A DNA stretch of 64,000 bases from Cyclobacteriaceae bacterium. Lineage in GTDB: Bacteria > Bacteroidota > Bacteroidia > Cytophagales > Cyclobacteriaceae. Below the pieces are notes generated by a model. That model was given only the letters and a program-made list of their open reading frames with translations. It was not told where the DNA came from and ran no database searches. Where the stretch lies: NCBI GenBank assembly GCA_019694875.1, contig JAIBBC010000002.1, positions 1,116,001 to 1,180,000 on the forward strand, in the 5' to 3' direction. Positions 3,899 to 59,750 of the stretch are shown in pieces (positions within the stretch are counted from its first letter, which is position 1; each line of letters begins with the position of its first letter). A program made the position numbers and the translations under genes.

Positions 3899-4450
3899 AT
3901 GAATACATTGAACACGGAGACCCGAATCGGTACAATGCTTTTGGACCACTTCTTGACGGCTGTTTTTGTTATGATTTTTGTAGCCCCCGGGTTGGTCTAT
4001 GACATCACACAGACATTTGGAAATTTAAATGTCCCACCGAAACTAATATTGGGCAATTATTACCTGAACATCTTTGCATTTTCGCTGTATTTCAACAAGG
4101 ATATATACATGGGGCGCAGTTTAGCCAAGAGAATTCTAAAACTTCAAGTTGTTGACATCAAAACAGGGTTACCTGCAAATGCCTTAAAGTGCTTTATTAG
4201 AAATCTAACGATTATACTTTGGCCGATTGAAGTAATTGTTGGACTGGTAAATAATGAAAGAAGAATTGGCGACTTCATTGCCGGGACTAAACTAGTACCA
4301 TACGACCCTGAAATTCACAAAGGGCAACCTAATTGGCTGTTAATAGTTGCAGCATTGTGTTTATCGGTGTTGTTTGTCTACATGACCATGTTTTATCCTA
4401 TTGAATTATTGACCCGGGGAAGCGGATTTCAGGTAGGTATGGCCCTGTAA
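3899..4450 (+). CDS. RDD family membrane protein
   Basis: The 183-residue protein has three to four hydrophobic segments and the RDD signature in diverged form: the first helix region (LLDHFLTAVFVMIFVAPGLVYD), the central GRSLAKRILKLQVVD loop and the later RRIGDFIAGTKLV motif. RDD proteins are small inner-membrane proteins, some linked to ion antiport or to surface-protein handling, but most have no defined role. The 121-bp gap upstream holds low-complexity AACCTCGAACC-type sequence and a weak promoter-like TATATTCG at 3871. A second RDD gene lies at 15673. Confidence 0.8.
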   Translation: MNTLNTETRIGTMLLDHFLTAVFVMIFVAPGLVYDITQTFGNLNVPPKLILGNYYLNIFAFSLYFNKDIYMGRSLAKRILKLQVVDIKTGLPANALKCFIRNLTIILWPIEVIVGLVNNERRIGDFIAGTKLVPYDPEIHKGQPNWLLIVAALCLSVLFVYMTMFYPIELLTRGSGFQVGMAL

Positions 4451-4455
4451 TTATC

Positions 4456-4498
4456 TGGTAAACGATTATGAAGGCTTGGTAAACGTGGTGCATAATCG
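4456..4498. repeat. Intergenic inverted and direct repeat
   Basis: Between the RDD gene and the next gene there are two copies of TGGTAAACG (4456-4464 and 4477-4485), exactly 21 bp apart. A perfect 8-bp inverted repeat, CGATTATG (4463-4470) with CATAATCG (4491-4498), overlaps them. The hairpin could act as a weak terminator, but no T-run follows. It may equally be an operator. Confidence 0.4.
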
Positions 4499-4507
4499 GT
4501 CTTAAAA

Positions 4508-5128
4508 ATGACTCGACTTACAATTTTCCTGGTTCTGATAACAAATCTGTCTTTTGGGCAAATTGATCAGGACTATCATCTTTATTCCCAAGTGCTTAAT
4601 GACTATATCAAACAGAGAGGCAACGATGATGCTACAACGATTGAGGTGGTGATCATTACTAAATACGCTCCGGGCGAGAATGAGGTATCGGCCTACGGTG
4701 AAGACTTTCTAAATAGCGATGAAACGACTATCAACATGGTGCTGCACTATGACACGGTGAAAATTAAATTGTTTAAAGACTACCGCGTCAAGAATGCGTT
4801 AAGGCAATTGGAGACGGAGTTTTTTGAGACGCCTTCATTGGACAAGGCAAAATTTACACTGACCTCGGAAGTTTCCGCAATAGCGAATAAAGAATTCAAA
4901 AGTTATTTTCGTAGGCGAATTGACAGGGGTTGGAAAAAGTTTTACAAAAGCCATCCTGGAGCGCTTGGTGTATTTGAGTTTTCAAAAGTAGTATATGCCG
5001 ACACCTATGCGTGTTTTTACGTTGGCCGATATTCAAACAGGCTTTCGGGTAGCGGGGACATTGTGATTGCAGAGCAGCTGAATGGAGAATGGAGCATAGT
5101 CACCTCGGTAAATAGCTGGATGAATTAG
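4508..5128 (+). CDS. Secreted protein of unknown function
   Basis: The 206-residue protein has a clear signal peptide (MTRLTIFLVLITNLSFGQ, cleavage after FGQ) and a mature region of mixed alpha/beta character. It ends in a beta-rich part (VVYADTYACFYVGRYSNRLSGSGDIVIAEQLNGEWSIV) resembling the closing strands of an NTF2-like or lipocalin-like fold. I do not recognise the family. It lies in a run of orphan secreted proteins (4.5-6.5 kb) with no metabolic neighbours, which looks like accessory sequence. Confidence 0.65.
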   Translation: MTRLTIFLVLITNLSFGQIDQDYHLYSQVLNDYIKQRGNDDATTIEVVIITKYAPGENEVSAYGEDFLNSDETTINMVLHYDTVKIKLFKDYRVKNALRQLETEFFETPSLDKAKFTLTSEVSAIANKEFKSYFRRRIDRGWKKFYKSHPGALGVFEFSKVVYADTYACFYVGRYSNRLSGSGDIVIAEQLNGEWSIVTSVNSWMN

Positions 5129-5212
5129 GCCTGCTACGCATGATAATGGTTTATTCAATTTCTAAATTCGACTTATCTTTAGTGTGATGCTCAATCAAGC
5201 GTAACTGATAAC

Positions 5213-5650
5213 ATGAGACCGCTTTTATTTTTTATTTTACTTACACTTATCGCGAGTTCCGTCTTTGGGCAAGACAATGGTGATAAGAATAAAACGGTTG
5301 GATTTAATTGTTACCGTACCGGGCATCCCACAAAGACCGTGGAAGAAGTGACTGACCTGCTTTTGAAAAACAATTACAAGGCAATTTCAGACTTGCTAAA
5401 AAATGGGCACGGGGGAGAGAAATTCCTGGCAACCATTTCACTCGAAAAACTTGCAGCACTGGGGCAGTATCAGTTATCGGACGATGAGAAAAGATTAATT
5501 AGTAAAATTAAAACCTCGGGCCGAAAAGTTTCTGTTTGCGACGGGTGTACATACGTTGATAAAGTGTCGTTAAAACAAATGTTTTCGGATGAAAATTTTC
5601 TGGGTGCAAATTGGTGGATAGAGAAGATTTTGAATGCTGATAAACAATGA
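5213..5650 (+). CDS. Secreted protein of unknown function
   Basis: The 145-residue protein has a signal peptide (MRPLLFFILLTLIASSVFGQ). The mature part has three cysteines, one in FNCYRTGHP near the start and two in the CDGCTYVD motif near residue 105, which could form disulfides in the periplasm. The central region (EVTDLLLKNNYKAISDLLKNG) is helical and repeat-like. No family recognised. It overlaps the next gene by 4 bp, so the two are almost certainly translated from one transcript. Confidence 0.65.
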   Translation: MRPLLFFILLTLIASSVFGQDNGDKNKTVGFNCYRTGHPTKTVEEVTDLLLKNNYKAISDLLKNGHGGEKFLATISLEKLAALGQYQLSDDEKRLISKIKTSGRKVSVCDGCTYVDKVSLKQMFSDENFLGANWWIEKILNADKQ

Positions 5651-6477
5651 AAAGTACCATAACAACAATTCTCGCAATCCTAATAGGTATTGTTTCCTTT
5701 GGTCAATCTAAAGATGAAGCTGAAATACTGGCCGAGGGCACGAGGCTGTATAAATCCGAAATGGCATCGTGGTATGGCACAGACATCTTTTTAAGTAAGT
5801 TTCCCGACAGACATCAAAAAGCGGGTGGTTATTTTTCGTACCTGAAAGACGACAAAGCAGTCTGCGTATTTTTTTCAAACGATGAAACCCCCAGGATAAT
5901 TGGCTCCTTTTCATTCGATAGCACGTATGATATCAATACAGCCATTGTGGAAGACCAGGAGCGCGAGTTAACAATTCAGGAAAGAGACCTCCTGGTCATC
6001 AGACAGGCGGCCATTAAAGAATTCAAGTCGGATACGCTGTTCAAAGCATACAAGGATATGAACCCGAACTTTATTCCGTTGAATGACGAGAAGGGAAAAA
6101 GGGTCTACATTTTAACGGGGCCGGAAAAGCCAGGTATAGTTGTTTTTGGTAATGATTACCTGCTGACTTTTAATAAAGACAACGAACTCAAAAACAAGAA
6201 ACGGCTTCATAAAAATATTATACCCATTGAGTATGGTAAAAAGGACGGAAAGATTGTTATAGCAACGATGCATTCCCACTTACCGGAAACCGGGGGCATA
6301 ATAACAGCAACAGACATTTGTACCTTGAAGTTATATTCCAAATATGCCAGATGGGGGCAGCATTATGTGATATCACAAAAGAACGTTTCCATTTGGGACT
6401 GTAATAAAGGAACTCTTCTTGTCATGACAAAGGAGGCCTGGGACAAAATAGCGAAGAGTCAAAAGGAAAAGGAATAA
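5647..6477 (+). CDS. Secreted protein of unknown function
   Basis: The 276-residue protein has a signal peptide (MKSTITTILAILIGIVSFGQ). The mature sequence contains KAGGYFSYLKDDKAVCVFFSND, an acidic helix (EDQERELTIQERDLLVIRQAAIKEFKSD) and a late segment with TMHSHLPETGGIITATDICTL. The HSH residues followed by a conserved-looking ATDICTLKLY stretch are reminiscent of JAB/MPN-like or other metal-site folds, but the evidence is weak and I assign no function. Its start overlaps the preceding gene by 4 bp. Confidence 0.65.
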   Translation: MKSTITTILAILIGIVSFGQSKDEAEILAEGTRLYKSEMASWYGTDIFLSKFPDRHQKAGGYFSYLKDDKAVCVFFSNDETPRIIGSFSFDSTYDINTAIVEDQERELTIQERDLLVIRQAAIKEFKSDTLFKAYKDMNPNFIPLNDEKGKRVYILTGPEKPGIVVFGNDYLLTFNKDNELKNKKRLHKNIIPIEYGKKDGKIVIATMHSHLPETGGIITATDICTLKLYSKYARWGQHYVISQKNVSIWDCNKGTLLVMTKEAWDKIAKSQKEKE

Positions 6478-6562
6478 CTGCCTGTAACAAGGGGTCAGAA
6501 TTTATTTTTCGTAATAACATAAAATCAGAATCAAACTGAACTGGATTGACAAAATAGGAGAG

Positions 6563-7258
6563 TTGATAACAAAGCCGGATAAATCACCTGAGCTGTTAAA
6601 TGGAGAGATAAAACAAATTCTCATTCGCACAGCAGGTGAAATGCTGCCTGACTTTGAGTTTCTGGGATATAAGAATAAGTGTTATTCCTTTAAACGGGAA
6701 AGACAAGCAAACAATGTTAAGGTTTATGAATTACTCTATGTAGTCTTTAACGATAAAGACAAAAATGTCTCCTGTTCAATTGCTTCAATACTAAATCCAG
6801 AGTATATTTTTTCGAATCAGTACAACATGGGAATGATAAACCCCCACCAGGACTTGAAGGTACTGAAGCATAATTCTGGTGGTTTGAGTTATCATGACGC
6901 ATTTTATTTCCACAATGGGAAAGTTGAAACCACAACAAAGATTGTGAGGCAAATTTTTGGTGACGTTAAGGAGTACGGATTTCCATTTCTTGACAAGCAA
7001 CTTGAAAGGCTAAAATCAAATTTAATCGTCAAATGTGGCTGTGAATACATCGGGGAATTAAAAACTGATAAACAAAAACTGAAAATTGAAATAACAGAAG
7101 AACTCAGTAAAGGCGGGCTTCTAATTTCGGATATAAAGCATCCGATTTATGTTAGTCTTAAAGAAAAGTTGCAATCTGTAAGTGGACAAAGTAAAGAAGA
7201 CAGGCAATTAATACCGAAAACTGCACATGAATTGCTAGAGCTATACTGCGCGAGATAA
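6563..7258 (+). CDS. Hypothetical protein, DUF4304-like, start uncertain
   Basis: A 231-residue reading frame with coding-like composition and no signal peptide. The N-terminal region (LPDFEFLGYKNKCYSFKRERQANNVKVYELLYVVFND) resembles the opening of DUF4304-type proteins, where a LGFKKKG...F.R pattern precedes several beta strands; this is a tentative likeness. No ATG is available: the frame opens after a stop at 6515 and the best start is TTG at 6563, with a purine-rich AGGAGAG lying unusually close. The gene may be 5'-truncated or may use a non-standard start. It reads low in GC and lies in accessory sequence. Confidence 0.5.
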   Translation: MITKPDKSPELLNGEIKQILIRTAGEMLPDFEFLGYKNKCYSFKRERQANNVKVYELLYVVFNDKDKNVSCSIASILNPEYIFSNQYNMGMINPHQDLKVLKHNSGGLSYHDAFYFHNGKVETTTKIVRQIFGDVKEYGFPFLDKQLERLKSNLIVKCGCEYIGELKTDKQKLKIEITEELSKGGLLISDIKHPIYVSLKEKLQSVSGQSKEDRQLIPKTAHELLELYCAR

Positions 7259-7276
7259 AATCACAAACTAACCAAC

Positions 7277-7325
7277 TTCTAACTTCTAACTCCTAACTCC
7301 TAACTCCTAACTCCTAACTCCTACA
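7277..7325. repeat. Heptamer tandem repeat (TCCTAAC)n
   Basis: Seven consecutive 7-bp units: two TTCTAAC, four TCCTAAC and a final TCCTACA. They sit between two convergent genes. The flank to 7370 continues with degenerate related words (CATTCGTAACTCG, CCCTAATCCC). Such short intergenic arrays are prone to slippage and may vary in copy number between strains. No promoter or terminator shape was seen here. Confidence 0.8.
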
Positions 7326-7371
7326 TTCCACCTTCCACATTCGTAACTCGTCATTCGAAAATCCCTAATCC

Positions 7372-8430
7372 CTAAATCCTCTCCAGCTTCACCGGATACG
7401 TCTTGTTCGCATTCCACTGACACACATACAGGTTCTTGTCGTTATCCACGCAAACGTCATGGCAATGGTTGAACACAGGTGTTTCCTGAACCATCAGTTG
7501 TAGTACATTGTCGCGATACACAGGTTTAGTGCCTCCGGGATTCGATACAACTTTATTGTTCTTGTCGAGAATGGTCACGAAGCCTGAATTGTCGGTCTGG
7601 TTAAGATACTTCAGCCGCGACCAGCACACGCCTGAATAAAGTGTGGTGCCGTCAATCACCGGCCGGCAAACAAACGCTCCGGGTAAAAAGATGGTCGACA
7701 GGTATTTTCCATCGAGCGTAAAGCGTTTGAAGGAGTTATGCGCCCGCGAAGTGCAAAGCAGTGTGGGATTATTCTTGTCGCGCGCATCAATGCACACGCC
7801 ATGCACGGTGCTGAATTTGTCATCGTCATCACCCGCTCCGCCAAACTTTCTTATAAATTCTCCCTTCGAATTAAACTGCAATACATATTGCGAACCATAG
7901 CCATCCGCTACATAAATGTCGCCATTGGGTGCAACGGTAGTCTCGGTAGGGTGGTAGCCTTGCTCAGCGGTATACACATTAATGCTCTTTGGGTTCGGCA
8001 ACTCCATCTGTATTTTTCCGTCAAGCGAAGTCTTCACCACACGACCGGTCTCATAGTCGCAGATGAACAACACTTCTTCTCCGCCTTCATCAAACAACGT
8101 TAATCCATGCCCGCCCGGAAAATCATGGCCCCACGAAGTGAGCAGTTTGCCCGATTTATCGTAAACGATGATGTTGTTTTTCGTCTCATCGGTGATCATA
8201 ATCAGCCTGCCTTTTTTGTCCATCACCATCTCGTGACAGTTTTTTACAGGCGTGGTGTCCGGGTTAAGATTGCCCCAGTTTTTATGTACACGGTAGCGGT
8301 AATCGCCATGGCCGATAACCTGGTCTTCCAGGGCCGGCTTGCTGATGATGTTGAATGTGGGGATTGTTACCGCAGCGCTGGTTAATGCAGTAATTTTCAG
8401 GAACTGTCTGCGCGATGTAGCCTTGCTCAT
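7372..8430 (-). CDS. Tat-exported NHL/six-bladed beta-propeller protein
   Basis: The 352-residue protein (from the ATG at 8430) begins MSKATSRRQFLKITAL, a twin-arginine signal, followed by WD/NHL-like blades: ENNIIVYDKSGKLLTSWGHDFPGGHGL, GDIYVADGYGSQYVLQFNSKGEF and NKNLYVCQWNA. NHL propellers act as binding platforms or, in some families, as lyases or oxidoreductases; here the role is unknown. The upstream frame to 8469 adds 13 residues before the RR motif, so the internal ATG is preferred. It diverges from the PSCyt1/DUF1553 operon and probably belongs to the same pathway, acting in the periplasm. Confidence 0.8.
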   Translation of the reverse strand: MSKATSRRQFLKITALTSAAVTIPTFNIISKPALEDQVIGHGDYRYRVHKNWGNLNPDTTPVKNCHEMVMDKKGRLIMITDETKNNIIVYDKSGKLLTSWGHDFPGGHGLTLFDEGGEEVLFICDYETGRVVKTSLDGKIQMELPNPKSINVYTAEQGYHPTETTVAPNGDIYVADGYGSQYVLQFNSKGEFIRKFGGAGDDDDKFSTVHGVCIDARDKNNPTLLCTSRAHNSFKRFTLDGKYLSTIFLPGAFVCRPVIDGTTLYSGVCWSRLKYLNQTDNSGFVTILDKNNKVVSNPGGTKPVYRDNVLQLMVQETPVFNHCHDVCVDNDKNLYVCQWNANKTYPVKLERI

Positions 8431-15547: not shown

Positions 15548-15607
15548 TTGGGCGAACGACCCCAAAATTGCTGGATATCCATTGCCAGGTTTTCAACTAA
15601 CTTAATA

Positions 15608-15666
15608 GCCCCGAAGGGGCGTAATATCAATAGCGAGGTGGCGGAGCCCCTCGCGCAAATAAACGC
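15608..15666. repeat. GCCCC-GAA-GGGGC hairpin and dispersed repeat copy 2
   Basis: A perfect 5-bp stem with a GAA loop (15608-15620) is followed by GTAATATCAATAGC and then by the second copy (15646-15666) of the GCCCCTCGCGCAAATAA repeat. Hairpins of this sequence are common between genes in Cytophagales genomes and are probably parts of small non-coding dispersed elements. No T-run is present, so it is not a typical terminator. Confidence 0.55.
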
Positions 15667-16550: not shown

Positions 16551-17522
16551 TTAACCATTTAGGCGAGTAACTTTAATGATTGGTATTGGAAAGAAATGAT
16601 TTAAACCATATAGTTTATTAAGAATTAGCGCCCGCGTAACATCTCCGACCGCAACTACAACCGCTGATAAAGCCACTTTATTTGTCTGATAAAGTTTTTC
16701 GGCCCTTTCAAACGGGTATTCATCATAGGGAATATCATCTAGTATTGTCTCGGCAGTTGGTAACTTTCCCGCATGAACAGTTACATGACGAACTTGTCTG
16801 GCGAGCTTAATAACAGCCTGATACTCCATTGCCAACTTCCTGTCATCAATTATTTTCTCTAGATACAAACTAAGCCACTGGTTCTCAGACATTTTTCGGT
16901 GCGGCATACTTTTTCCACAAGCGGAACAACAATTGTGGCCCGTGCAGGTCTCGGCATGACCAATGAGGATCTCTAAAAGAGTAACGCATCCGACAATTAC
17001 ATTATAAGAGTTATCAAAAATCTTATAATTTCTGTTGGTGCGGATCGTGATTGCCTGTTCACTCCTTGAATTGAAGTAAAGAACAAAGTAATCGAGGTGC
17101 TTGTCGTCAAGCTTCATGTAGAGGTCCTTGAAACTTATTGTATCTTGAACTGTATTGCCGATGTAGATGTAGTTGCCAATATTCGAGAAATCAACATTTC
17201 CTCTCCGGCAATTGGTATCTACCGGAACAGACGAGATGGATTTCACCTCAATATGTTTGTTGAATTCTTCCTTATCGAACATTCTAATTAGCCGGTTATC
17301 CGAGAATATAAAGGAGTAGAGCGCGACTATCTTTTTAACCATTATGATATGCTCATCTAAGGTAGTTGCCTCCGTGTAAAAATTTACCACATCATGAACC
17401 GAGATCATCAAGGGGAACTCGGATAACTCAACCGATCCGTTAGGCAAAAGGTAGATACCACTGTCTAATTGATATACGGTTGAAGGGCTCCAGTCTGAAA
17501 TCACTGATGTATAAAAAGGCAT
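16551..17522 (-). CDS. HEPN-domain protein with cysteine cluster (ApeA-like), putative defence
   Basis: The 323-residue protein has a C-terminal HEPN-like domain with an exact RX4H motif, RHVTVH (Arg245, His250), the catalytic signature of HEPN ribonucleases. Just before it is a Cys/His-rich segment (CTGHNCCSACGKSMPHRK, residues 193-210) that may bind zinc. The N-terminal half (residues 1-180) is beta-rich, as in ApeA-like proteins where an N-terminal sensor is joined to a HEPN effector. RNA cleavage in anti-phage or toxin roles is typical of this fold. It is transcribed away from the neighbouring ATPase-DUF4435 gene. Family assignment is inferred from the motif. Confidence 0.65.
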   Translation of the reverse strand: MPFYTSVISDWSPSTVYQLDSGIYLLPNGSVELSEFPLMISVHDVVNFYTEATTLDEHIIMVKKIVALYSFIFSDNRLIRMFDKEEFNKHIEVKSISSVPVDTNCRRGNVDFSNIGNYIYIGNTVQDTISFKDLYMKLDDKHLDYFVLYFNSRSEQAITIRTNRNYKIFDNSYNVIVGCVTLLEILIGHAETCTGHNCCSACGKSMPHRKMSENQWLSLYLEKIIDDRKLAMEYQAVIKLARQVRHVTVHAGKLPTAETILDDIPYDEYPFERAEKLYQTNKVALSAVVVAVGDVTRALILNKLYGLNHFFPIPIIKVTRLNG

Positions 17523-17615
17523 GAGAAACTTGGATTAGGTTTGGGTCCAAAAATAGCCAACAGAATAAAGCAAATTCTACTCATCGGGATTGTTTAAAAA
17601 CTCGCATTTCGATTT

Positions 17616-17650
17616 GTCTCGCTAACATTCTGCCTTGCGGTTAGCGAAAC
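17616..17650. repeat. Inverted repeat in divergent intergenic region
   Basis: A perfect 8-bp inverted repeat TCGCTAAC/GTTAGCGA (17619-17626 and 17640-17647) with a 13-nt loop, extended by two more pairs after one mismatch. It lies in the 358-bp gap between the HEPN gene and the ATPase gene, and could be an operator or a remnant of a mobile-element end. Confidence 0.5.
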
Positions 17651-17671
17651 CTAAAAATTTAACTCCAGTTA

Positions 17672-17688
17672 ATAGGAGTTACTCCTAT
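17672..17688. promoter_or_regulatory. Palindrome ATAGGAGT-N-ACTCCTAT, candidate operator
   Basis: A perfect 8-bp palindrome around one central base, preceded by a further half-site (TAACTCC at about 17660). It lies 150 bp upstream of the HEPN start and 193 bp upstream of the ATPase start, the only shared control region of the island. A near-identical copy occurs at 26467-26483. Confidence 0.5.
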
Positions 17689-17880
17689 GTCAAACTGACG
17701 GGGAAGATTTTCTACTTCAAATCAGTGCCAAAATGATGCTTAGCAATATCTTCACCAAGGTTAACACAAAGACTTTTGGCCCGAAATGTACTTATCTTGA
17801 GGAAGTAATAGAGGATATTGGTCATAATGGCGCTTATATCCAGAAGTTATGTGGTATTTTTAAAAAGACACCATTACAAT

Positions 17881-19491
17881 ATGAACATACAATTACCGAC
17901 CAAAATAGGGTCACCTAATTCAAGCCCATCCATAGAGTTTGAACAACTCGTAGTAGTCGGAGCGAATGGAGCTGGCAAAACACGCTTTGGCTCAAGAATT
18001 GAAGAAATGTATCTTGGACAGACACATCGAATTTCAGCCCAAAAATCACTTACTTTTCCTTCCCATGTTAGTCCGACATCAAGACATCGAGCAGAAATAG
18101 CATTTAAGTATGGAAATTATCATGAACATTTTAAAACTGAAAGCCAATATCATGGACAGAAAATCGGAAATCGTTGGGGTGGAAATATCAATACATCATT
18201 ATTAAATGACTTTGACAAATTATTAATATTACTTCACACAGAAGAATACGAAGATTCATTAAGTTATAAAGAAGGTCGAATCGCAAAGCCAACAACAAAA
18301 CTTGACCGAGTTCAACTAATTTGGGAAGCGGTTTTACCTCACCGAAAATTAATTAAATCTGCTGGAGTTGTCGAAACTTTTCCCACAGGGCAAGTAGCAA
18401 GTAAATATAATGCTTCTGAAATGAGTGATGGGGAAAGGGTTATTTTCTATCTAATAGGGGAAGTTATTTGTGCAACTCGGAATTCAATAATAATAATTGA
18501 CGAACCTGAAATGCATATACATAAGTCATTAGTAAAGACTTTATTTGACCTAATTGAAATTGAAAGACCAGACTGCGCATTCATTTATCTTACACATGAT
18601 ATTGACTTTGCTTTTACAAGACAAAATGCAATAAAAATTTGGGCAAAGTCCTATGAAGGAGGTAATGTTTGGGATTATGAAATTCTTAGCGAAGAAATGC
18701 CAATACCTGAGCAACTTTACCTTGAAGTTCTTGGCAGTCGTAAACCCGTAATTTTTTTAGAAGGCGAAAACAGTAGCATAGACTACGAGATTTATGAGCA
18801 AGTCTATACAGATTATACGCTAAAACCACTAGGAGGCTGTGAAAAGGTAATTCAATCCGTAAAAGCATTCAACGAACAAAAAGGGTTTCATCATATTGAA
18901 TCAATAGGAATTATTGATAGAGATAGAAGACAAAATGAGGACTTGGTAAAATTAAATTCTAAAAATATTTGGGTTTTAGATGTTGCGGAGGCGGAGAATT
19001 TATTATTGATAGAAAATATTGTAAAGTCAATTGCACAGCATATGGGCAGAGACCCAGAGGCTGTTTTTTCCGAAGTCAAGCATAATCTAATATCATTTTT
19101 TGGTAGTCAGATTGAAACACAAATCTTATTGCATTACAGAGAACTATTAAGGAGAGAGTTTATCACGCTTACTAATTTCTCATCGAAAAATATTTCAGAT
19201 GTTATTGCAGAAGTTGATGTTTTGTATGGCTCAGTAGACAAGCAAGACCTTTTCGACAAAGTAAAGAAAGAATTTGAATTGGTTGTTTCAACAAAAGATT
19301 ATGATGCAGTACTAAGATTATTCAATTTAAAAAATGCACTAATCCCAAACTCTAAAGTTTGCGAATTGACAGGTATTAAAAACAAGGAAGACTATTTGAA
19401 ACTCGCTATTTCTCTTTTAAAAAGGAAAAATAAAGTTTCTCAGGACATTAGAAATGCAATTGACAATAAAATAATTAAAAACGCCACATAA
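17881..19491 (+). CDS. ABC-type ATPase fused to DUF4435 (merged PARIS-like defence protein)
   Basis: The 536-residue protein (ATG at 17881; the frame extends to 17818) has an ABC-type ATPase: Walker A GANGAGKT (27-34), signature-like MSDGER (181-186), Walker B IIIIDEPE (Asp207, Glu208) and H-loop LTHD (His239). It continues into a DUF4435/TOPRIM-like domain: VIFLEGENSSIDY (Glu294, Glu296) and GIIDRDRR (Asp346, Asp348), then a helical C-terminus. PARIS systems pair an AAA ATPase (AriA) with a DUF4435 effector (AriB), and single-chain merged forms are known. The gene is much richer in A/T than the chromosome around it, which suggests transfer. An OLD-like nuclease is the alternative. Confidence 0.75.
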   Translation: MNIQLPTKIGSPNSSPSIEFEQLVVVGANGAGKTRFGSRIEEMYLGQTHRISAQKSLTFPSHVSPTSRHRAEIAFKYGNYHEHFKTESQYHGQKIGNRWGGNINTSLLNDFDKLLILLHTEEYEDSLSYKEGRIAKPTTKLDRVQLIWEAVLPHRKLIKSAGVVETFPTGQVASKYNASEMSDGERVIFYLIGEVICATRNSIIIIDEPEMHIHKSLVKTLFDLIEIERPDCAFIYLTHDIDFAFTRQNAIKIWAKSYEGGNVWDYEILSEEMPIPEQLYLEVLGSRKPVIFLEGENSSIDYEIYEQVYTDYTLKPLGGCEKVIQSVKAFNEQKGFHHIESIGIIDRDRRQNEDLVKLNSKNIWVLDVAEAENLLLIENIVKSIAQHMGRDPEAVFSEVKHNLISFFGSQIETQILLHYRELLRREFITLTNFSSKNISDVIAEVDVLYGSVDKQDLFDKVKKEFELVVSTKDYDAVLRLFNLKNALIPNSKVCELTGIKNKEDYLKLAISLLKRKNKVSQDIRNAIDNKIIKNAT

Positions 19492-19618
19492 CAAGTGTTT
19501 GGTAAAAAAGAGGTTTTCAGTGCTTAAATGAAGCTTTGTACTTCGTATCAAGTTCAGTGCTGGCAGATAGTCTAATGCTTCGAAATCCACTTCTTCGCCA
19601 AACGCCAAAACGTTGGAC
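19489..19618. other. attC-like imperfect inverted repeat after the ATPase gene
   Basis: Starting at the stop codon, TAACAAGTGTTTGG (19489-19502) can pair with CCAAACGC (19598-19605). The far end reads GTTGGAC (19612-19618), which fits the integron R-box GTTRRRY. The inside is a long imperfect hairpin, with GGTTTTC able to pair with GAAATCC. No integron integrase is in the window, and the outer spacer is shorter than usual on one side, so the call is tentative. It could also be a dispersed repeat of another kind. Confidence 0.35.
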
Positions 19619-19685
19619 GAAGGTTGAGGATATCAACCATTTTAAGGAATTACGATAAAGCTAAAAGCATATCAGAGAAACCAGT

Positions 19686-20177
19686 ATGAAAGTACCAGCT
19701 AACGAGAATGAAATTACATTATACTGTTTGGTTGGAGAAGCCATATGGAAAATCCAGGCAGTTGAACAGGCTTTGAGCTGTTCAATCACTCTTAAAATGA
19801 ATCCTGCCGCAACGAAGGAACAGGCTGATAAAGTCTTAAAGCAGCACCAAAGCTACACTTTAGGTATGGCTGTTAATATTGCCAGCAGAGAAAAACTGTA
19901 TGAATCATCTTTGCAAGACGAGTTATATACTTTCTTAAACCTAAGAAATTGGTTGGTTCACAAGGCTATGGCTGAGAGCCATCATGACAAAAATTGGGAA
20001 AATGAAAAGGAGGAATTATTCGGCAAAATAAAATCTATTTCCGACAAAGCTGAAAGCATTCAACATAAAATTGAATATGATATGATCAGCTTTTGTTCTT
20101 CGAAAGGCAAAGACATGTCTAAAATTCTTGAGTTATTAAAATTGCAAGAACAAGGAGTAAGGGTAAAAAAAGCATGA
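19686..20177 (+). CDS. HEPN-like protein with RNxxxH motif
   Basis: The 163-residue all-helical protein contains LRNWLVHKA with an exact RX4H motif (Arg87, Asn88, His92), typical of HEPN nucleases and of HEPN proteins in toxin-antitoxin pairs. The N-terminus (EITLYCLVGEAIWKIQAVEQAL) and the charged C-terminal helices fit a compact helical bundle. No signal peptide. It lies downstream of the ATPase-DUF4435 gene beyond the attC-like repeat. It could be a third component of the island or an independent RNase toxin; no obvious antitoxin gene adjoins it. Confidence 0.65.
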   Translation: MKVPANENEITLYCLVGEAIWKIQAVEQALSCSITLKMNPAATKEQADKVLKQHQSYTLGMAVNIASREKLYESSLQDELYTFLNLRNWLVHKAMAESHHDKNWENEKEELFGKIKSISDKAESIQHKIEYDMISFCSSKGKDMSKILELLKLQEQGVRVKKA

Positions 20178-20212: not shown

Positions 20213-20249
20213 ACGATATCTCGCAACCCCGCTTACGACATCTCGTAAC
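20213..20249. repeat. Pair of degenerate repeats upstream of the Ala/Lys-rich gene
   Basis: ACGATATCTCGCAAC (20213-20227) and ACGACATCTCGTAAC (20235-20249) match at 13 of 15 positions with a 22-bp period. They resemble the ACTCGCGATACGA words of the arrays at 21.2 kb and 59.5 kb, so the next gene is flanked by related repeats on both sides. Confidence 0.5.
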
Positions 20250-20351
20250 TCGTCTCATAACAACCGCTAAATTAATGTCAATTCTGGCTTAAAGGTCCCG
20301 GCATGTTCTCTGTGTAAGTGAAAATAAAATTCACTTAAACAAAAAAGTAAC

Positions 20352-21098
20352 ATGACATCAACATCAGAAACCGGCCACGCCAGAAATGTCGCGGCCTTCG
20401 AAGACCTCATCAGCTTCTGCACCGCTTATGGTGCCTCGTACAATCCCGCGAAAGCGGCACTTAAAACTGCAGCCCTCACCGCACAACTTACGGCTGCAAC
20501 TACGGCCGTGCAGGCGGTGAAGATTGCCAAAACCGCGTACGACAATGCCACCAATGCACGCGAGCTCGCGTTCAAACCACTGAAACCGCTGGTCACCAGA
20601 GTGGTGAATGCAATGGCCGCAAGCGAAGCCAGCAAACCAACACTGGCGGATGTAAAGTCGGTAAACAACAAGATTCAGGGCAAACGTGCCAAGGCTGTAG
20701 CGAAGCCCGATGCAAAAGCGCTGGCGGAAGGCGCAACTCCTGTGCGAACCGCCTCAGCCTCGCAGCAAAGCTTCGATAAACTCATCGATAACTTCACGCA
20801 GCTTATTGCAACGGTCTCGGCCGAGCCTAAATACGTGCCGAACGAGAACGATTTGAAAGTTCCCGCCCTCAACGCCCTGCTGGCGGACATGAAAGCGAAG
20901 AACTCTGCCGTTATTAATGCCAATACGGTCGTGAGTAACGCCCGCATCGCGCGTGATAAGGTGATGTACGATGCCACAACCGGCCTGTTCGAAACTGCGC
21001 TGGCGGTAAAGGTGTATGTGAAGTCCGTGTACGGTGCAACAAGCCCCCAGTACAAGCAAGTAGGCGGGTTGAAGTTTTCCAACCTGCCCAGAAACTAG
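20352..21098 (+). CDS. Ala/Lys-rich helical protein of unknown function
   Basis: The 248-residue protein has no signal peptide or membrane segment. It is built of long Ala-rich amphipathic helices (AALKTAALTAQLTAATT, AYDNATNARELAFKPLKPL) with a basic Lys/Ala-rich linker (GKRAKAVAKPDAKALAEG) in the middle. The two halves share an NAREL.F / NARIARD-type helix, hinting at an internal duplication. I do not know its function. The composition is compatible with a histone-H1-like or coiled-coil DNA-associated protein. It is flanked by arrays of about 21-bp repeats and ends in its own terminator. Confidence 0.7.
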   Translation: MTSTSETGHARNVAAFEDLISFCTAYGASYNPAKAALKTAALTAQLTAATTAVQAVKIAKTAYDNATNARELAFKPLKPLVTRVVNAMAASEASKPTLADVKSVNNKIQGKRAKAVAKPDAKALAEGATPVRTASASQQSFDKLIDNFTQLIATVSAEPKYVPNENDLKVPALNALLADMKAKNSAVINANTVVSNARIARDKVMYDATTGLFETALAVKVYVKSVYGATSPQYKQVGGLKFSNLPRN

Positions 21099-21223: not shown

Positions 21224-21597
21224 GAATTCTTGCGATACGAGTTAGAATTCCCGCGATACGAGTTAGAATTCTTGCGATACGAGTTAGAATTCTTGCGATA
21301 CGAGTTAGAATTCCCGCGATACGAGTTGGTATTCTTGCGATACGAGTTGGTATTCTTGCGATCCGAGCTGGTATTCTTGCGATACGAGTTGGTATTCTTG
21401 CGATCCGAGCTGGTATTCTTGCGATACGAGTTGGTATTCTTGCGATACGAGTTAGTATTCCCGCGATACGAGTTGGTATTCTTGCGATACGAGTTAGTAT
21501 TCCTGCGATACGAGTTAGAATTCCCGCGATACGAGTTGGTATTCCCGCGATACGAGTTGGTTTTCCTGCGATACGAGCTGCGAATCCCGCGATGTGA
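21224..21597. repeat. Tandem array of 21-bp repeats, about 17 copies
   Basis: About 17 head-to-tail units of 21 bp with invariant-looking core GCGATACGA and variable flanks (TTCTT or TTCCC before it, GTTAG or GTTGG after it). Some units carry GCGATCCGAGCTG. Because 21 is divisible by 3, several frames stay open and give artificial repetitive ORFs. The array fills most of the gap of about 600 bp between the Ala/Lys-rich gene and the GT90-like gene. A period of 21 bp equals two helical turns, so every core faces the same side of the DNA. Confidence 0.9.
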
Positions 21598-51024: not shown

Positions 51025-53934
51025 ATGACTCCGGCCAGGATCGTTTTTCTCGTCCTCTTGCTGAATTTTTTCTGGAAATCTTATGCTCAGTCGAATCTGG
51101 CGGGTGTTCCGTTCGTTCGGAACTTCTCCACACAAGACTACGGTGCCGGTATTCAGAACTGGGATATCGTGCAAGACAAACGCGGGCTCATCTACATCGC
51201 CAACAACTTTGGGTTGCTCGAATTTGACGGAAACCGCTGGCAGATTTACCGGGTAAAGAACGGATCCAAAATGCGCAGTGTGGCTGTTGATGATTCCGGG
51301 AAAATCTTTGTCGGCTGTCAGGGAGATTTTGGATACTTCTTTCCAAACAACCAGGGCCAGCTTCAGTATACTTCCCTGGCCGACAGCCTCCCGGACCAGT
51401 ACCGGAATTTTGATGAGACATGGAATGTGTTTATCGATGAAGGTCAGGTGTACTTCTGTACGTTCTCGAATATTTTCATTTACGATCACGGTAAGTTCAA
51501 TGTGGTTAAACCTGCTCATGCACTTGAGCTTTCATTTTTTGTAAACCGTGAATTGTACGTGGATGAGCGCGAACGGGGTATCACACAATTAAGCGGTGAA
51601 AACCTGACGCCCATCGAAGGCAACGAATTCTTCAAGAACAAAGGCATCTCGTCAATCCTCCCGTATTCTGCCAACCGAATGATCATCAGCACCTTTCAGC
51701 AAGGGGTGTTTGAGTTCAACAATGGGATGATCAAACCATGGCGCCCCGACTTACAAGCATATTTCAAAGAAGCCATTGTAAACATCATGGTGAGGCTGAA
51801 GAACGGCAACTTTGCCGTGGGCACACAGAATCACGGACTGTTGATTATCAATGACGAAGGGGATGTACTGGTGCAACTTACAGCCGGCAAGGGCCTGCAG
51901 AACCGAACCGTGCTAAGTGTGTTTGAAGATGACCTTCAAAATCTTTGGGTTGGGCAGAATAATGGCCTCGCTTACGTTGAACTTGGTTCACCTTTTACCT
52001 TCATCAACGAACAAATGGGCCTGCCGGGAACCGGCTATTGCGCATACCTGGATGATCACAAGCTTTACCTGGGAACCAACACGGGCCTGTATGTTAAAGA
52101 TCCTTCTGTTAAAGGTAGTTCCTTCAAATTAGTCGAGAACAGCCGGGGGCAGGTGTATCACATCGGCCGGTATGGAAATGATTTGTTGATGGGCCATCAT
52201 AATGGTGCCTTTAGAATCGATGGCGACAAGAGTACACTCATTTCTTCAGAACCCGGTGCCTGGATATTTCTGCAACTTCGGCAAAACCCGAATCTTTTGG
52301 TGGAAGGTTCATACAATGGTCTTCAACTTTTGCAAAAGAAGGCAGATGATCACTGGGTGGCGAAAACCCGTCTGGATGGCTTTCGCGAATCATCGCGTGT
52401 GATGGAGCAGGATCGTGATGGTGTATTGTGGATTACCCACGGGTACAAAGGGGTGTATAAGGTTGTGTTTAATGATTCCGCTAATCGCATCCAATCCATT
52501 GACTTTTACGGAGCAGAAAAAGGATTCCCGTCAAACGTGCTGATTAACGTGTTCAATATCCGCAATGAACTTGTTTTTACGTCCGAGAACGGAGTGTATA
52601 AGTATGATAAGCAAACGGATCGCTTTGTGCGGGAACCGTTCTTTACCAATCTGTTAGGCGAATACGCGCAACTCTGGCATCTCCGCGAAGACGCGTTCGG
52701 CAACATTTATTTTACCGGCCAGAACCAGATCGGTGTGCTCCGGAAGAATACAATCGGAACCTACTCGCTGGAGGCTAACACGTTTAATAAGATTCGTGGA
52801 TTTTTGAATGACGATCTTGAAAACATGACCATCCTTGAGAACAACGAGGTTATGTTCGGAGCAAAGGAGGGTTTTGTTCATTACAATCCCAATACCCGGC
52901 TGTCGTCAGAGTCAAGATTTAAAACACATATCCGGAGATTTTCTACAACCATAGCCGGTGATTCACTTTTGTTTTACGGAAATCATGTTGATAAAAATCA
53001 GATCACGGAAAGTCAGGCGGCAAGTGATGTCATCTCACTTCCATATAAAGCTAATTCAGTGAACTTCTCGTTCGCTGCCACGTCTTTCGAAGGCAATGGC
53101 GAAGTTATGCACCAGTATTATCTTGAGAAGTTCGAGAAAACATGGTCGGAGTGGACCACCAAAACGCAAAAAGAATATACGAACCTGCGCGAAGGCCAAT
53201 ATACCTTTCATGTGCGCTCCCGGAATGTGTATGGTGAAATCAGTAAAGAAATTACCTATCAATTTATCATATCGCCTCCCTGGTACCGGACGGTTTGGGC
53301 GTACCTGATTTACGCCATTACCGTGATCGGATTGTTGTATACGGGATTCGGCCTGCTCGACCGGAAACACAAACATGAGAAGCGGTTGATGAATATTCAA
53401 CAGCAGAAGGAACTGATCCGAAGAGATAATGAAATGGAATTGCTGGCACAAAAAACACAGGAAGAAATCACGCGATTGAAAAACGAAAAGCTGGAAGCCG
53501 AGCTGATGCACATGAACAAAGAATTAGGAACGTCAACTGTTCTTATTCTGAATAAAAACGAATTCATCACCGGGGTAAAAGATCATCTGAAAAGCATTTC
53601 GAAAAAGAGCTCACAGGACGTGTCAAAAGAGCTTACGCAAATTGTTCACGACATTGAGGGAAACTTGTCGTCCGATCAGGACTGGGAACATTTCCAACAG
53701 CACTTCGATAACGTTCATGGTGATTTCTCCAGGCGGTTCCGGGCAGCGTATCCAACACTTAGTCCGCAAGACATGAAATTGAGCGCATACCTGCGCATGA
53801 ACCTTTCTACCAAAGAAATCGCGAACCTGTTGAATATCTCAGTCAGGGGAGTAGAGATCAGTCGTTACCGGCTTCGTAAAAAGTTAAAGCTCGACCGGAA
53901 GCTTAACTTACAGGAATTCATTTTGGGTTTTTGA
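51025..53934 (+). CDS. Y_Y_Y/Reg_prop sensor with C-terminal LuxR-type HTH
   Basis: The 969-residue single-chain sensor-regulator: signal peptide, periplasmic Reg_prop propeller (NWDIVQDKRGLIYIANNFGLLEFDG, DLQNLWVGQNNGLAYVE), a Y_Y_Y domain (FEKTWSEWTTKTQKEYTNLREGQYTFHVRSRN), one membrane helix (VWAYLIYAITVIGLLYTGFG), a coiled coil, and a cytosolic HTH (SPQDMKLSAYLRMNLSTKEIANLLNISVRGVEISRYRLRKKL). Unlike hybrid two-component systems it has no kinase or receiver domain. It diverges from susC and probably activates the glucan locus on sensing oligosaccharide. Confidence 0.9.
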   Translation: MTPARIVFLVLLLNFFWKSYAQSNLAGVPFVRNFSTQDYGAGIQNWDIVQDKRGLIYIANNFGLLEFDGNRWQIYRVKNGSKMRSVAVDDSGKIFVGCQGDFGYFFPNNQGQLQYTSLADSLPDQYRNFDETWNVFIDEGQVYFCTFSNIFIYDHGKFNVVKPAHALELSFFVNRELYVDERERGITQLSGENLTPIEGNEFFKNKGISSILPYSANRMIISTFQQGVFEFNNGMIKPWRPDLQAYFKEAIVNIMVRLKNGNFAVGTQNHGLLIINDEGDVLVQLTAGKGLQNRTVLSVFEDDLQNLWVGQNNGLAYVELGSPFTFINEQMGLPGTGYCAYLDDHKLYLGTNTGLYVKDPSVKGSSFKLVENSRGQVYHIGRYGNDLLMGHHNGAFRIDGDKSTLISSEPGAWIFLQLRQNPNLLVEGSYNGLQLLQKKADDHWVAKTRLDGFRESSRVMEQDRDGVLWITHGYKGVYKVVFNDSANRIQSIDFYGAEKGFPSNVLINVFNIRNELVFTSENGVYKYDKQTDRFVREPFFTNLLGEYAQLWHLREDAFGNIYFTGQNQIGVLRKNTIGTYSLEANTFNKIRGFLNDDLENMTILENNEVMFGAKEGFVHYNPNTRLSSESRFKTHIRRFSTTIAGDSLLFYGNHVDKNQITESQAASDVISLPYKANSVNFSFAATSFEGNGEVMHQYYLEKFEKTWSEWTTKTQKEYTNLREGQYTFHVRSRNVYGEISKEITYQFIISPPWYRTVWAYLIYAITVIGLLYTGFGLLDRKHKHEKRLMNIQQQKELIRRDNEMELLAQKTQEEITRLKNEKLEAELMHMNKELGTSTVLILNKNEFITGVKDHLKSISKKSSQDVSKELTQIVHDIEGNLSSDQDWEHFQQHFDNVHGDFSRRFRAAYPTLSPQDMKLSAYLRMNLSTKEIANLLNISVRGVEISRYRLRKKLKLDRKLNLQEFILGF

Positions 53935-54008
53935 TTAAATACGTGAGATCATTTATTTTAATAAAAGAACTTTGCTATAATTTACTTTACTGATTTTCAA
54001 CTTGATAA

Positions 54009-54182
54009 CAAATAATTTTAAATCGCAGAGGTCAGGGCATTGATAACCCCGAACAGGCTCAGGCAATTTTGGAATTAAATGTTAAAGTTGTAAAAGAAGT
54101 TGTTAATGTGGTTGATGAGAATCTGAGAAAGAAAAAGTCCAATGGACAAACAAACCCTGCACCGCAGGAAAATGCATATTGA
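54009..54182 (+). pseudogene. 3' remnant of an unidentified gene
   Basis: An open frame of 57 codons without any start codon, with coding-like sequence ending QAILELNVKVVKEVVNVVD, a KKK stretch and GQTNPAPQENAY. It stops 3 bp before the next gene. It looks like the C-terminus of a protein whose 5' part was lost. Parent family not recognised. Confidence 0.4.
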
Positions 54183-54185
54183 ATT

Positions 54186-54782
54186 ATGAAACAACTTATC
54201 TTTTATCTTGGGGTACTTATCTCAGTAAGTATCTTGGTGGGCTTTGTATGTTTTTTTTCTCTTAACCCAAGCGTATTTAAAGAAATTAACAATCTACCTG
54301 TCGGGGTGTACAATGTTGATCAAATAGAGCTTAGCATCATCCCTAAATGCATTTATTTGATAACAGGTTTTTTAACGATAATATATGCGAGCCTGGCATT
54401 GGTTCAGTATCGACATATTTTATTGAAACTAGGTGCACTAGCCATCCTTGTGACAGGATTGATTTGGATGAGCTTTGGGCTTATATCGGTTGATCCTAAT
54501 TCTGAATCTGATTATGGTAGCGTGATTTTAAGATCATACTTAATTGTACTTTTCATCTTAACGGCCAAAATAATTTTATTGGTTCACGTTTATAATATTG
54601 GTAGAGGCTTAATATACAAGACTCTTACAGCTATTTTAATAGGAATTGATTTTCTTTTTTTGTTTATAACAATGTTTAGTCCGTCCATAAGTTGGACATT
54701 CATTAATATCATTCTTTTGATATATTTTTTCTGGCTTGCTTTTGAGGGTTACTTTTTATCGAAACCGTTAACTGGCACGTAA
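54186..54782 (+). CDS. Multi-pass membrane protein of unknown function
   Basis: The 198-residue protein has five or six membrane helices (LIFYLGVLISVSILVGFVCFF, YLITGFLTIIYASLALVQY, LGALAILVTGLIWMSFGLI, YLIVLFILTAKIILLVHVY, LTAILIGIDFLFLFITMF, FINIILLIYFFWLAF). No motif suggests a function. The gene is markedly AT-rich compared with the sugar-use locus next door, consistent with acquired DNA. It stands right behind the gene remnant. Confidence 0.55.
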   Translation: MKQLIFYLGVLISVSILVGFVCFFSLNPSVFKEINNLPVGVYNVDQIELSIIPKCIYLITGFLTIIYASLALVQYRHILLKLGALAILVTGLIWMSFGLISVDPNSESDYGSVILRSYLIVLFILTAKIILLVHVYNIGRGLIYKTLTAILIGIDFLFLFITMFSPSISWTFINIILLIYFFWLAFEGYFLSKPLTGT

Positions 54783-54793
54783 AAAGGAGAGCG

Positions 54794-54976
54794 TTATAGA
54801 ATCGCCTTAAAAAACAAATAGAAACCAACTAGGATACAGAATACTCCTGTGAGTAAGGAGGATATTTTTGTTAGGTATTGATCTTTTTTATACGATTCAA
54901 TATTGCGATGAAGCAGCAATGCGATTAATCCAATTAAGAGTAGTATAAGAGAGTAAAGTAGCTCGTCTCCAATCAT
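54794..54976 (-). CDS. Small two-helix membrane protein
   Basis: About 60 residues from ATG at 54976. Two hydrophobic helices (LLYSLILLLIGLIALLL and ISSLLTGVFCILVGFYLFF) around a short basic loop. The frame continues 15 codons upstream but through the tail of another, degraded gene, so the internal ATG is preferred. It begins 10 bp after that remnant's stop, suggesting the two were once an operon. No function known. Confidence 0.5.
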   Translation of the reverse strand: MIGDELLYSLILLLIGLIALLLHRNIESYKKDQYLTKISSLLTGVFCILVGFYLFFKAIL

Positions 54977-54986
54977 ACACCTAACT

Positions 54987-55131
54987 TTACTTTGCGTACG
55001 CTTTTTTAGTTTTAAAGTCACAGAGTGCCATATCGATCATGTTATGAACAAACGTTTTGTTCTCGTCAGATAGGCTGTAGTATATCTTCCTGTTAATACA
55101 CAATAAAATTGTCAATTTCTTCTCTGATTTT
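54987..55131 (-). pseudogene. C-terminal remnant resembling a winged-helix regulator
   Basis: On the minus strand, NRKIYYSLSDENKTFVHNMID followed by MALCDFKTKKAYAK and a stop looks like the wing and dimerisation helix of an ArsR/MarR-type regulator. Upstream, EEIDNFIV sits in a different frame, one base off, and no helix-turn-helix is left. The gap from here to 55411 shows no other convincing gene. Confidence 0.3.
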
Positions 55132-55411
55132 TAGGTATAAGGTATGCCAAAGTTATATTTGTTTTTTACAAAGGCCAACTTCCCTGGGTATTGTTGTGAA
55201 GAATCAAGAACACAGCGAATTCTTATACTTCGATGAAGCGGTAAAGATCAATTCCATGTTATTCGATCATACCAACAGCAGCACAACTAATTATGCCAAA
55301 CGATTAACCGCTTTGCTACAGATGGTGCGGATTCGCCAAATCTTTAATTGTAATTCCGGTTGATACGTTAACTTTTCAGTATTTGCAAAGTGCCCCCATA
55401 CGAACAACAGG

Positions 55412-55560
55412 CTCCTGTAACTTTATAACGCCCTTCCGCATAACCAATTCGGACATCAGCGAGAGAAATTCAAGCAATCAGGAAGGTTCAGAACTCACGA
55501 CTCAAAGTATAAAACTCGCGACCCGATGCGTATGACTCGGGATCACGCGGAGAAATTCAG
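55412..55560. repeat. Dispersed element, copy A: conserved head plus a few degenerate units
   Basis: The first 69 bp (CTCCTGTAACTTTATAAC ... GAGAGAAATTCAAGCA, 55412-55480) match 59342-59410 at 59 of 69 positions without gaps. Then follow a few degenerate units with AAAACTCGCGAC and GACTCAAAGTAT words, shared with the long array at 59.5 kb. It lies in a gap of about 630 bp between small genes; the rest of the gap shows nothing clear. Confidence 0.75.
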
Positions 55561-55590
55561 CGTTGCACCTGTTGGTTAGTTACGCTGAAG

Positions 55591-55624
55591 AAAAAAAGGA
55601 AATCGAAATGACTTCCTCTTTTTA
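55591..55624 (-). terminator. Rho-independent terminator after the 55652 gene
   Basis: On the minus strand GAGGAAGTC, a 5-nt loop ATTTC and GATTTCCTT pair over about 9-12 bp (two G-U), followed by a run of seven T. It lies about 30 bp after the stop of the secreted protein gene. Confidence 0.65.
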
Positions 55625-55651
55625 CACGTACCGACAAATAACTACTGATCA

Positions 55652-56287
55652 CTACCGCTCAAAAATCAATACTCTAACGGCTCCCCAGGGATGATTCACA
55701 TCACTTTTTTCAGCTGTCAGGTTGATTTGTAGTTCAGATCCATTATCGTATTTAGAGTACGAAGCCGAGCCGGTAGCAGAGCGGCCGGTGGCCATCGCCA
55801 GGGCGTTAGCTCTTGACTGGGCTTCATAGCGTGCCTGATTTCGCGCATTGCTTTTCTCAACCATGTTCATGATGTCGTCTACTTTGAACTCCAGTGCCTG
55901 ATATTTATCAGAAACGGAAATCGGATTGCTGATAATCCATTTCTTCTGCTTAAAGCCTTTCCCCTCCGAAACAATTTTGCGCTGACTCTTGTCTGCAGTT
56001 TCCCATTCCATCGAGTTACCTTTTATCGAAAATGTAACAGCTTTCGAACTGTAGGTGTCAGCGATCACATACACCACGTATTTACCTTTTGGCAGATAGA
56101 ATTCAGTCGATGCCGTAGCGGATGCGCTGTCGAGATAAAGCGTTTCCTCCAGAACTTTATTCTTTGGTTTGTACATCTTGTTGACTTCGTCAGCCTGAGC
56201 TTGAAATGGATCACTCTGCGCTACAACGGCTGATGCCAGAAATAGCAATCCGGCCATGAGCCTGAATCCGGTGCTTAATGTTTTCAT
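55652..56287 (-). CDS. Secreted protein of unknown function
   Basis: The 211-residue protein has a signal peptide (ending ASAVVAQ). The middle (TEFYLPKGKYVVYVIADTYSSKAVTFSIKGNSMEW) is beta-sandwich-like, followed by a helical Ala/Arg-rich stretch (NARNQARYEAQSRANALAMATGRS) and a closing beta region. I do not recognise the family. It lies after the NarL-type response regulator on the same strand, about 110 bp away, and has its own terminator. Confidence 0.65.
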   Translation of the reverse strand: MKTLSTGFRLMAGLLFLASAVVAQSDPFQAQADEVNKMYKPKNKVLEETLYLDSASATASTEFYLPKGKYVVYVIADTYSSKAVTFSIKGNSMEWETADKSQRKIVSEGKGFKQKKWIISNPISVSDKYQALEFKVDDIMNMVEKSNARNQARYEAQSRANALAMATGRSATGSASYSKYDNGSELQINLTAEKSDVNHPWGAVRVLIFER

Positions 56288-59341: not shown

Positions 59342-59750
59342 CTCCTGTAACTTTATAACATCCCTCCGCATAGCGAATTGGGGCATCAGCGAGAGAAATT
59401 CAAGCACCCCGGAAGAGAATTTGAGCATCCGCAACTGGAAAACTCGCAGTGTTGCAGAGAAAACAGGCAGCTTGATGTGTATAACTTGCGACTGCACGGA
59501 GAAATCCCGCGATACGAAGTATGGAACTCGCGGTACGAAGTATGAATCTCAAGACTCAAAGTATAAAACTCGCGACTCGATGTGTATAACTCGCGACTCA
59601 ATGTGTATAACTCGCGACTGTAAGTATAAAACTCGCGATACGAAGTATGAAACCCGCGACTGCAAGTATAAAACTCACGACTGCACAGAGAAATCTCGCG
59701 ATACGAAGAATAAGACTCGCAATCTTACCGCCCAAAAAACGCAGGTCACT
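59342..59750. repeat. Dispersed element, copy B: conserved head plus 21-bp array
   Basis: The head (59342-59410) matches copy A. It is followed from about 59450 by some fourteen degenerate 21-bp units built on AACTCGCGAYnCGA, alternating between GATACGAAGTATGA, GACTCGATGTGTAT and GACTGYAAGTATAA versions. The array shares period and GCGATACGA core with the array at 21.2 kb. It keeps a frame open on the plus strand that I do not believe is a gene. Confidence 0.85.

Follow-up and report, generated by a model that had tools for sequence, protein, structure and literature searches.

The stretch of DNA analysed here, referred to as the window, comprises 64,000 nucleotides of contig JAIBBC010000002.1 of a Cyclobacteriaceae bacterium (assembly GCA_019694875.1), and all coordinates are positions within it. 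Three open reading frames lie within 3.6 kb of the window, on the strands and with the motifs that the original prediction had described, namely a reverse-strand frame at 16551–17522 with RHVTVH, a central forward frame that starts at 17818 or 17881, ends at 19491 and contains GANGAGKT, IIIDEPE, LEGE and DRD, and a forward frame at 19686–20177 with RNWLVH. What that prediction had overlooked is an attC site at 19476–19623 and the borders of a gene cassette around the central gene (Table 1). Judging from its sequence and surroundings, the central gene very probably encodes a defence protein of the single-chain PARIS type and reached this genome, where searches revealed no integron-type integrase, as an integron cassette.

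Table 1. Features at the locus and the basis on which each was delimited
Feature	Positions	Strand	Basis and remarks
323-aa orphan gene outside the cassette	16551–17522	−	RX4H motif at chance level; searches for relatives empty
Host-lineage repeat	17792–17851	+	60 nt; also on contig 4 of the same genome and in congener G294
5' core site	17846–17855	+	GTTATGTGGT; 9/10 bases complementary to the core site at the stop of the gene
Probable integron gene cassette with the single-chain PARIS gene	17847–19612	+	From G/TT to G/TT, 1766 nt, G+C content 0.34; inverted repeat and attC covariation
Merged AriA–AriB (PARIS) gene	17881–19491	+	536 aa, ABC-type ATPase followed by DUF4435/Toprim; profile matches and alignment
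attC	19476–19623	+	R'' GCCACATAAC (19483–19492), L''/L' stem, R' GTTGGAC (19612–19618)
Second cassette-like unit	19613–20177	+	Begins at the attC crossover; holds the 163-aa HEPN-like gene (19686–20177)

The identity of the central protein as an ATPase joined to a DUF4435 domain is far above chance. Pfam gives matches to DUF4435 (8.9e-20) and AAA_21 (3.4e-10), and the PADLOC model of single-chain AriAB is matched with 461.9 bits (7.6e-139) over residues 20–547, nearly the full length. Together with its relatives, which comprise the best 80 of the 174 loci from a contig scan and four others, the window's gene makes up a set of 85 AriAB loci. In an alignment of the 82 copies longer than 400 aa, the Walker A residues G27, N29, G30, G32 and K33 and the signature residue S182 are identical in 82 of 82, as are the Toprim residues E294 (Glu294), D346 (Asp346) and D348 (Asp348). 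Judged by this alignment, the active-site residues of both the ATPase and the Toprim domain are intact and conserved, and the protein combines an ABC-type ATPase with Walker A, Walker B and signature motifs and a DUF4435/Toprim domain whose Glu and Asp residues are conserved, as is characteristic of PARIS. Because of the Pfam and PADLOC matches, the residues shared by all 82 copies and the single-gene AriA–AriB fusions reported in the original PARIS paper (PMC9122126), the protein is, at the level of sequence, a member of a known family, fused PARIS, and the merged PARIS-like ATPase-DUF4435 protein proposed originally is borne out.

With regard to the start of this gene, ATG 17881 is the most likely codon, because TTG 17818 precedes the cassette border and the relatives begin at the residue matching ATG 17881; the upstream TTG was rejected on these grounds, and the residue numbers of the original prediction already agree with the ATG. 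The family has a patchy distribution, being detected in 8 of 290 other genomes of the order at E < 1e-20. A scan of viral contigs with the AriAB alignment returned at least nine loci at 30–37% identity, single-protein scans of viral contigs yielded no relative, and sequence searches of the PDB gave nothing useful.

The assignment of 17847–19612 as a cassette is drawn from the inverted repeat at its borders and from the attC. The repeat has 18 nt and lies on both sides of the central gene, as GTTATGTGG at 17846 and as CCACATAAC with its end at 19492, and the G+C content of the cassette compares with 0.46 and 0.51 on its two sides. The site directly behind the inverted repeat recurs in congeners, and it is of a 147-nt attC type with AAC and GTT cores that is common to 17 aligned copies. 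These are 17 of 20 aligned copies, from which three copies of L075 with an extra insert were omitted, and weaker BLAST matches were left out of the alignment. Across the 17 copies, 14 of the 24 pairs of the stem have changed on both sides and 86.3% of the cells are paired; none of 500 shuffles scored as high, and slid controls were 31–40% paired. The arm names R'', L'', L' and R' in Table 1 follow the usual naming of attC arms. A covariance model built from these 17 training sites, the window's own among them, finds one match in the window at E ≤ 1, at 19476–19623 with 124.6 bits, which is that training site. The element accordingly has what defines an integron cassette, namely attC cores with a covarying L''/L' stem and 5' bases complementary to the 3' core site (9/10).

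Cassette-type borders also surround AriAB relatives in Bacteroidota, on a Synechocystis plasmid, in Vibrio and in Pseudoalteromonas. Border complementarity, which was testable in 79 of the 85 loci and was scanned only from 20 nt before the stop, reaches 9–10 of 10 bases in 8 of the 16 testable copies at ≥60% identity and in 6 of the 63 below 60%, the background being 31 of 2,000 mismatched pairings. Locus L092, in which the AriAB gene lies between two attC sites, was missed because its core site is slightly further inside than 20 nt, and the original count was kept. When the covariance model was run on 57 of the AriAB loci, an attC overlapping or just behind the gene end was detected in 10 (L001, L089, L091, L092, L093, L095, L099, L102, L105 and L106); a separate run on the other 28 loci found none at the gene end. 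On the Synechocystis plasmid, the copy is 71% identical and has borders of this kind, with a different attC. Moreover, a Pseudoalteromonas plasmid record (L084) contains a canonical IntI (460.1 bits, cut-off 265) followed by a run of cassettes, with borders read by eye, that includes AriAB, which places a homologue in an integron array together with an integrase. A tree was built from 83 AriAB copies and has 81 labelled rows; L113, a border-test positive that is AT-rich and far from the start, was dropped by eye before labelling. Cassette type was assigned to 18 of the 81 rows, and this label needs 10 changes on the tree, at least seven of which are forced by starred branches.

The 147-nt attC type is widespread in the genus. 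Sites are found by the covariance model in 16 of 17 genus genomes, and the richest genomes hold at least 80, 74, 57, 56 and 45, counts that are lower bounds, as at most 150 candidates were scored per genome. Same-strand attC arrays lie behind an IntI-like recombinase in G295, G304, G292, G078, G297, G303 and G296 (for example in L176, L178, L180, L182 and L185). A recombinase related to the one beside the G295 array (E < 1e-60) occurs in 11 of the 17 genomes; those without it have 16 sites (G298), 12 (G299), 2 (G293), 3 (G294), none (G301) and, in the window's own genome, 3. The regions behind 12 of 15 strong integrase matches were compared with eight arbitrary control regions from the same genomes, omitting two matches near contig ends and one on contig 9 of G303, where the strong listed attC is on the other side and strand. 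Sites are present in 10 of the 12 integrase regions (the misses being L179, of only 468 nt, and L186) versus one of the eight controls, and 65 of 66 are on the integrase strand, the remaining one being a weak echo of a plus-strand match. Region L187 is partly circular in this comparison, because it overlaps L071, the source of two of the 17 training sites.

With regard to the recombinase itself, the integron-integrase model TIGR02249 is the best model for three of five recombinases tested, the second for one and the third for one. The scores range from 185.6 to 236.9, all below its cut-off of 265 and each in two stretches, and the mixed Xer/integron model NF040815 has its own cut-off passed by two of the five. 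In the genome scan with TIGR02249, the stretches end near position 180 and resume near 238. The IntI-like recombinase of the congeners leaves approximately positions 181–238 of the profile unmatched and carries an N-terminal extension of about 105–150 aa; the IntI insert is a known feature of integron integrases. The chances appear evenly balanced that the genus runs a distinct integron lineage, with 147-nt attC arrays and an IntI-like recombinase (long N-terminal extension, ~181–238 unmatched) on the cassette strand, and that this lineage supplies defence cassettes, such as one-piece PARIS and a new HEPN-like family, which cross phyla by attC-type exchange. The congener arrays and their atypical recombinase are a more novel lead than the PARIS cassette, and a directly testable one.

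Several observations weigh against the reading of the central gene as an integron cassette. The window's attC, folded alone as single-stranded DNA, is not stronger than its shuffles (z 0.40), and the stem pairing was traced by eye on a single aligned sequence, which favours it over the slid controls. The upstream border of the cassette yielded no attC. The window's genome has three matches to the covariance model, of which only the window's is among the strong matches listed, and no recombinase like that of the congeners' integrons, the best match being 33% identical (2.2e-30) and of a type also present in most congeners. The TIGR02249 cut-off is exceeded in none of the 17 genus genomes, and by this measure no integrase shares a genome with the cassette; because no integron-type integrase was found in its own genome, the cassette is called stranded rather than part of an integron. 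Classification as a CALIN, an attC cluster without integrase, for which IntegronFinder needs two attC by default (PMC9024848), was rejected, since the window holds one. Among the relatives, 8 of the 16 testable copies at ≥60% identity fail the border test, and several failures (L086, L087 and L088) have decayed-looking core sites when read by eye. In addition, these tests reveal no sign of a cassette in 63 of the 81 labelled rows, among them the entire Parabacteroides/Barnesiella branch (35 rows). Promoter and terminator scans gave nothing above chance. The Parabacteroides/Barnesiella branch consists of L085 and loci among L115–L163, and AriAB looks vertically kept within it.

The place of insertion can be viewed against congener G294, in which flanks 82% (left) and 74% (right) identical enclose a different 4 kb with other genes. 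AriAB DNA is absent among the matches listed for the 16 congeners, at most 17 candidates per genome having been scored. The repeat at 17792–17851 stops matching its other copies just past the first GTT of the cassette, and this points to a secondary GTT site as the place of insertion; with one repeat and one other locus to go by, this repeat is a possible insertion point.

The flanking genes had both been described as HEPN proteins because of their RX4H motifs. HEPN RNases carry an RX4-6H motif, and the motif is weak evidence here, because it is present in 14 of the 44 window open reading frames of at least 150 aa and in 36% of shuffles of the upstream protein; for the downstream protein the figure is 8.6%. 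Neither protein has a Pfam, PADLOC, NCBIfam or PHROGs match at E ≤ 1. For the upstream protein, of 323 aa, no relative came to light among 290 other genomes of the order or 394 genomes of a phylum sample (the samples overlap), nor in plasmids, phages or a scan of viral contigs, and its HEPN assignment is unsupported. Of 394 other genomes of the phylum, two encode a clear relative of the downstream 163-aa protein (64% and 44%), and weak matches to it occur in one genome of the order and on one Thauera plasmid. R87, N88, W89, L90 and H92 are invariant among the protein and its two clear relatives (three sequences; RNWLxH), and on these residues the downstream protein is a plausible HEPN protein, with no known HEPN family matched.

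The two clear relatives of the downstream gene are cassette-associated, independently of AriAB. In L174 (5865–7799), a DndB-like gene with an attC behind it precedes the relative, which also adjoins McrBC-like genes (our own reading of the sequences), and L174 is another defence-rich cassette spot. In L175, the relative is bordered by GTTATGTATT and AACACATAAC, as its own cassette would be (read by eye), and the covariance model finds no site there. AriAB was not found by tblastn in either locus (9.9 and 12 kb fetched). In the window itself, the covariance model and a core search revealed no second attC and no expected core complement behind the downstream gene.

The original prediction had joined the three genes into one multi-effector defence system, in which an ATPase-DUF4435 sensor would control two HEPN RNases as effectors. 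Their adjacency within 3.6 kb and the RNWLxH that the downstream protein shares with its two clear relatives speak for such a system, but a tblastn of both flanking proteins against the 85 AriAB loci, covering up to 6 kb of flank per locus and in some cases ending at contig ends, returned only the window copies (best other E 1.1). Neither flanking gene was found beside the 84 other AriAB copies, and among the 31 loci at ≥45% identity the commonest neighbour family is present in only two. This outcome, unrelated neighbours around homologues of the ATPase-DUF4435 gene, is one that the original prediction had named as refuting it. Furthermore, the upstream gene is encoded on the other strand and lacks relatives in the genomes searched, AriAB and the downstream gene lie on different sides of a cassette border, and the relatives of the downstream gene have other neighbours. 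Two effectors under one sensor are not borne out; the HEPN–PARIS–HEPN system was rejected and appears highly improbable. Stacking at an attC explains the grouping best, and the flanking genes seem to be bystanders, not members of a shared system. The neighbour family shared most widely among the AriAB loci spans 23 of them, all below 45% identity.

An ordinary defence island, assembled from unrelated defence genes by general recombination at a variable site with the attC being incidental, would fit the different 4 kb between the same flanks in G294 and the host-lineage repeats around the site. It is nonetheless unlikely, as the attC and core sites border AriAB exactly, with 9 of 10 bases complementary, and such borders recur in unrelated genomes. 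Less likely still is an OLD-like ATPase-Toprim nuclease with a housekeeping role instead of one in defence. A weak sequence match to an OLD-family chain (E 0.12) and the apparently vertical inheritance of the Parabacteroides/Barnesiella branch without cassette signs are in line with it, whereas the PADLOC AriAB model is the best match by far, and the patchy occurrence in the order and the copies on cassettes and plasmids argue against it.

Other features of the window are noted for completeness. Its G+C content dips to 0.38–0.41 at two more places (approximately 4000–8000 and 53000–56000), which are possible other imports. A 21-nt tandem repeat occupies 21226–21577 (16.8 copies, 90% matches), and a second 21-nt array is located at 59508–59720. 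The DNA of 20213–21076, which includes most of a gene at 20352–21098 (248 aa), is resembled at four other places of the same genome (contigs 1, 3 and 4) and at four places in G294. At 15606–15662 lies a dispersed repeat, about 55 nt long and with a hairpin of the CCCCGAAGGGGC type, of which G294 has several copies, both in the matching region and elsewhere. Another dispersed repeat at 17673–17718, with AGGAGTTACTCCT, has copies on contig 3 of the same genome and in G294. No Rfam match was obtained at gathering thresholds.

If the central protein works as a cassette-borne PARIS, the systems studied so far suggest how it may act. The ATPase half would sense a phage anti-restriction protein, and the Toprim RNase half would then be unleashed on host tRNA, as in two-gene PARIS, so that growth stops. 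A 2025 paper (PMC12409363) describes an AriA hexamer that holds AriB, a Toprim tRNase. As the two halves share one chain in the window's protein, activation would involve a rearrangement or re-pairing of Toprim domains and not the release of a separate AriB. The downstream HEPN-like gene may have come as a separate cassette or cassette-adjacent gene whose own attC has since been lost, and the upstream gene may be resident or have arrived by another route.

The locus corrects a tempting multi-effector model and calls for caution, since adjacency of defence genes at attC sites can mean cassette stacking and not partnership. Integron cassettes are a possible route for single-chain PARIS between Bacteroidota, cyanobacteria and gammaproteobacteria, and the one-gene form suits one-gene cassettes, which may help to explain why the fusion exists. 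Two Science papers from 2025 reportedly describe defence cassettes in integrons; papers on cassette-borne PARIS were not among the matches listed in the open-licence PMC literature.

Compared with known systems, the downstream protein resembles HEPN RNases in the RNWLxH kept with its two clear relatives and differs from them in the absence of a family match. The locus is like a CALIN in having an attC where an integrase is not found, and unlike one in having a single attC in the window. With integron gene cassettes it shares the single gene, the 5' core site and the attC with paired L''/L' arms and AAC and GTT cores; it differs in being a lone cassette without an integron-type integrase found and in its long 147-nt attC type. 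Phage-related functions are a reported class of integron cassettes, in a review that also counts Bacteroidota among the phyla with integrons (PMC8618304), and in a passage by the IntegronFinder authors, Bacteroidetes had yielded nothing but integrases lacking cassettes until a complete integron was found in Salinibacter (PMC9024848). The likeness to PARIS lies in the ATPase and DUF4435/Toprim domains, the fusion form and the conserved acidic Toprim residues. The window's gene differs in being carried as an integron cassette; the fusion itself is already published, and what is new is the PARIS gene as an integron cassette.

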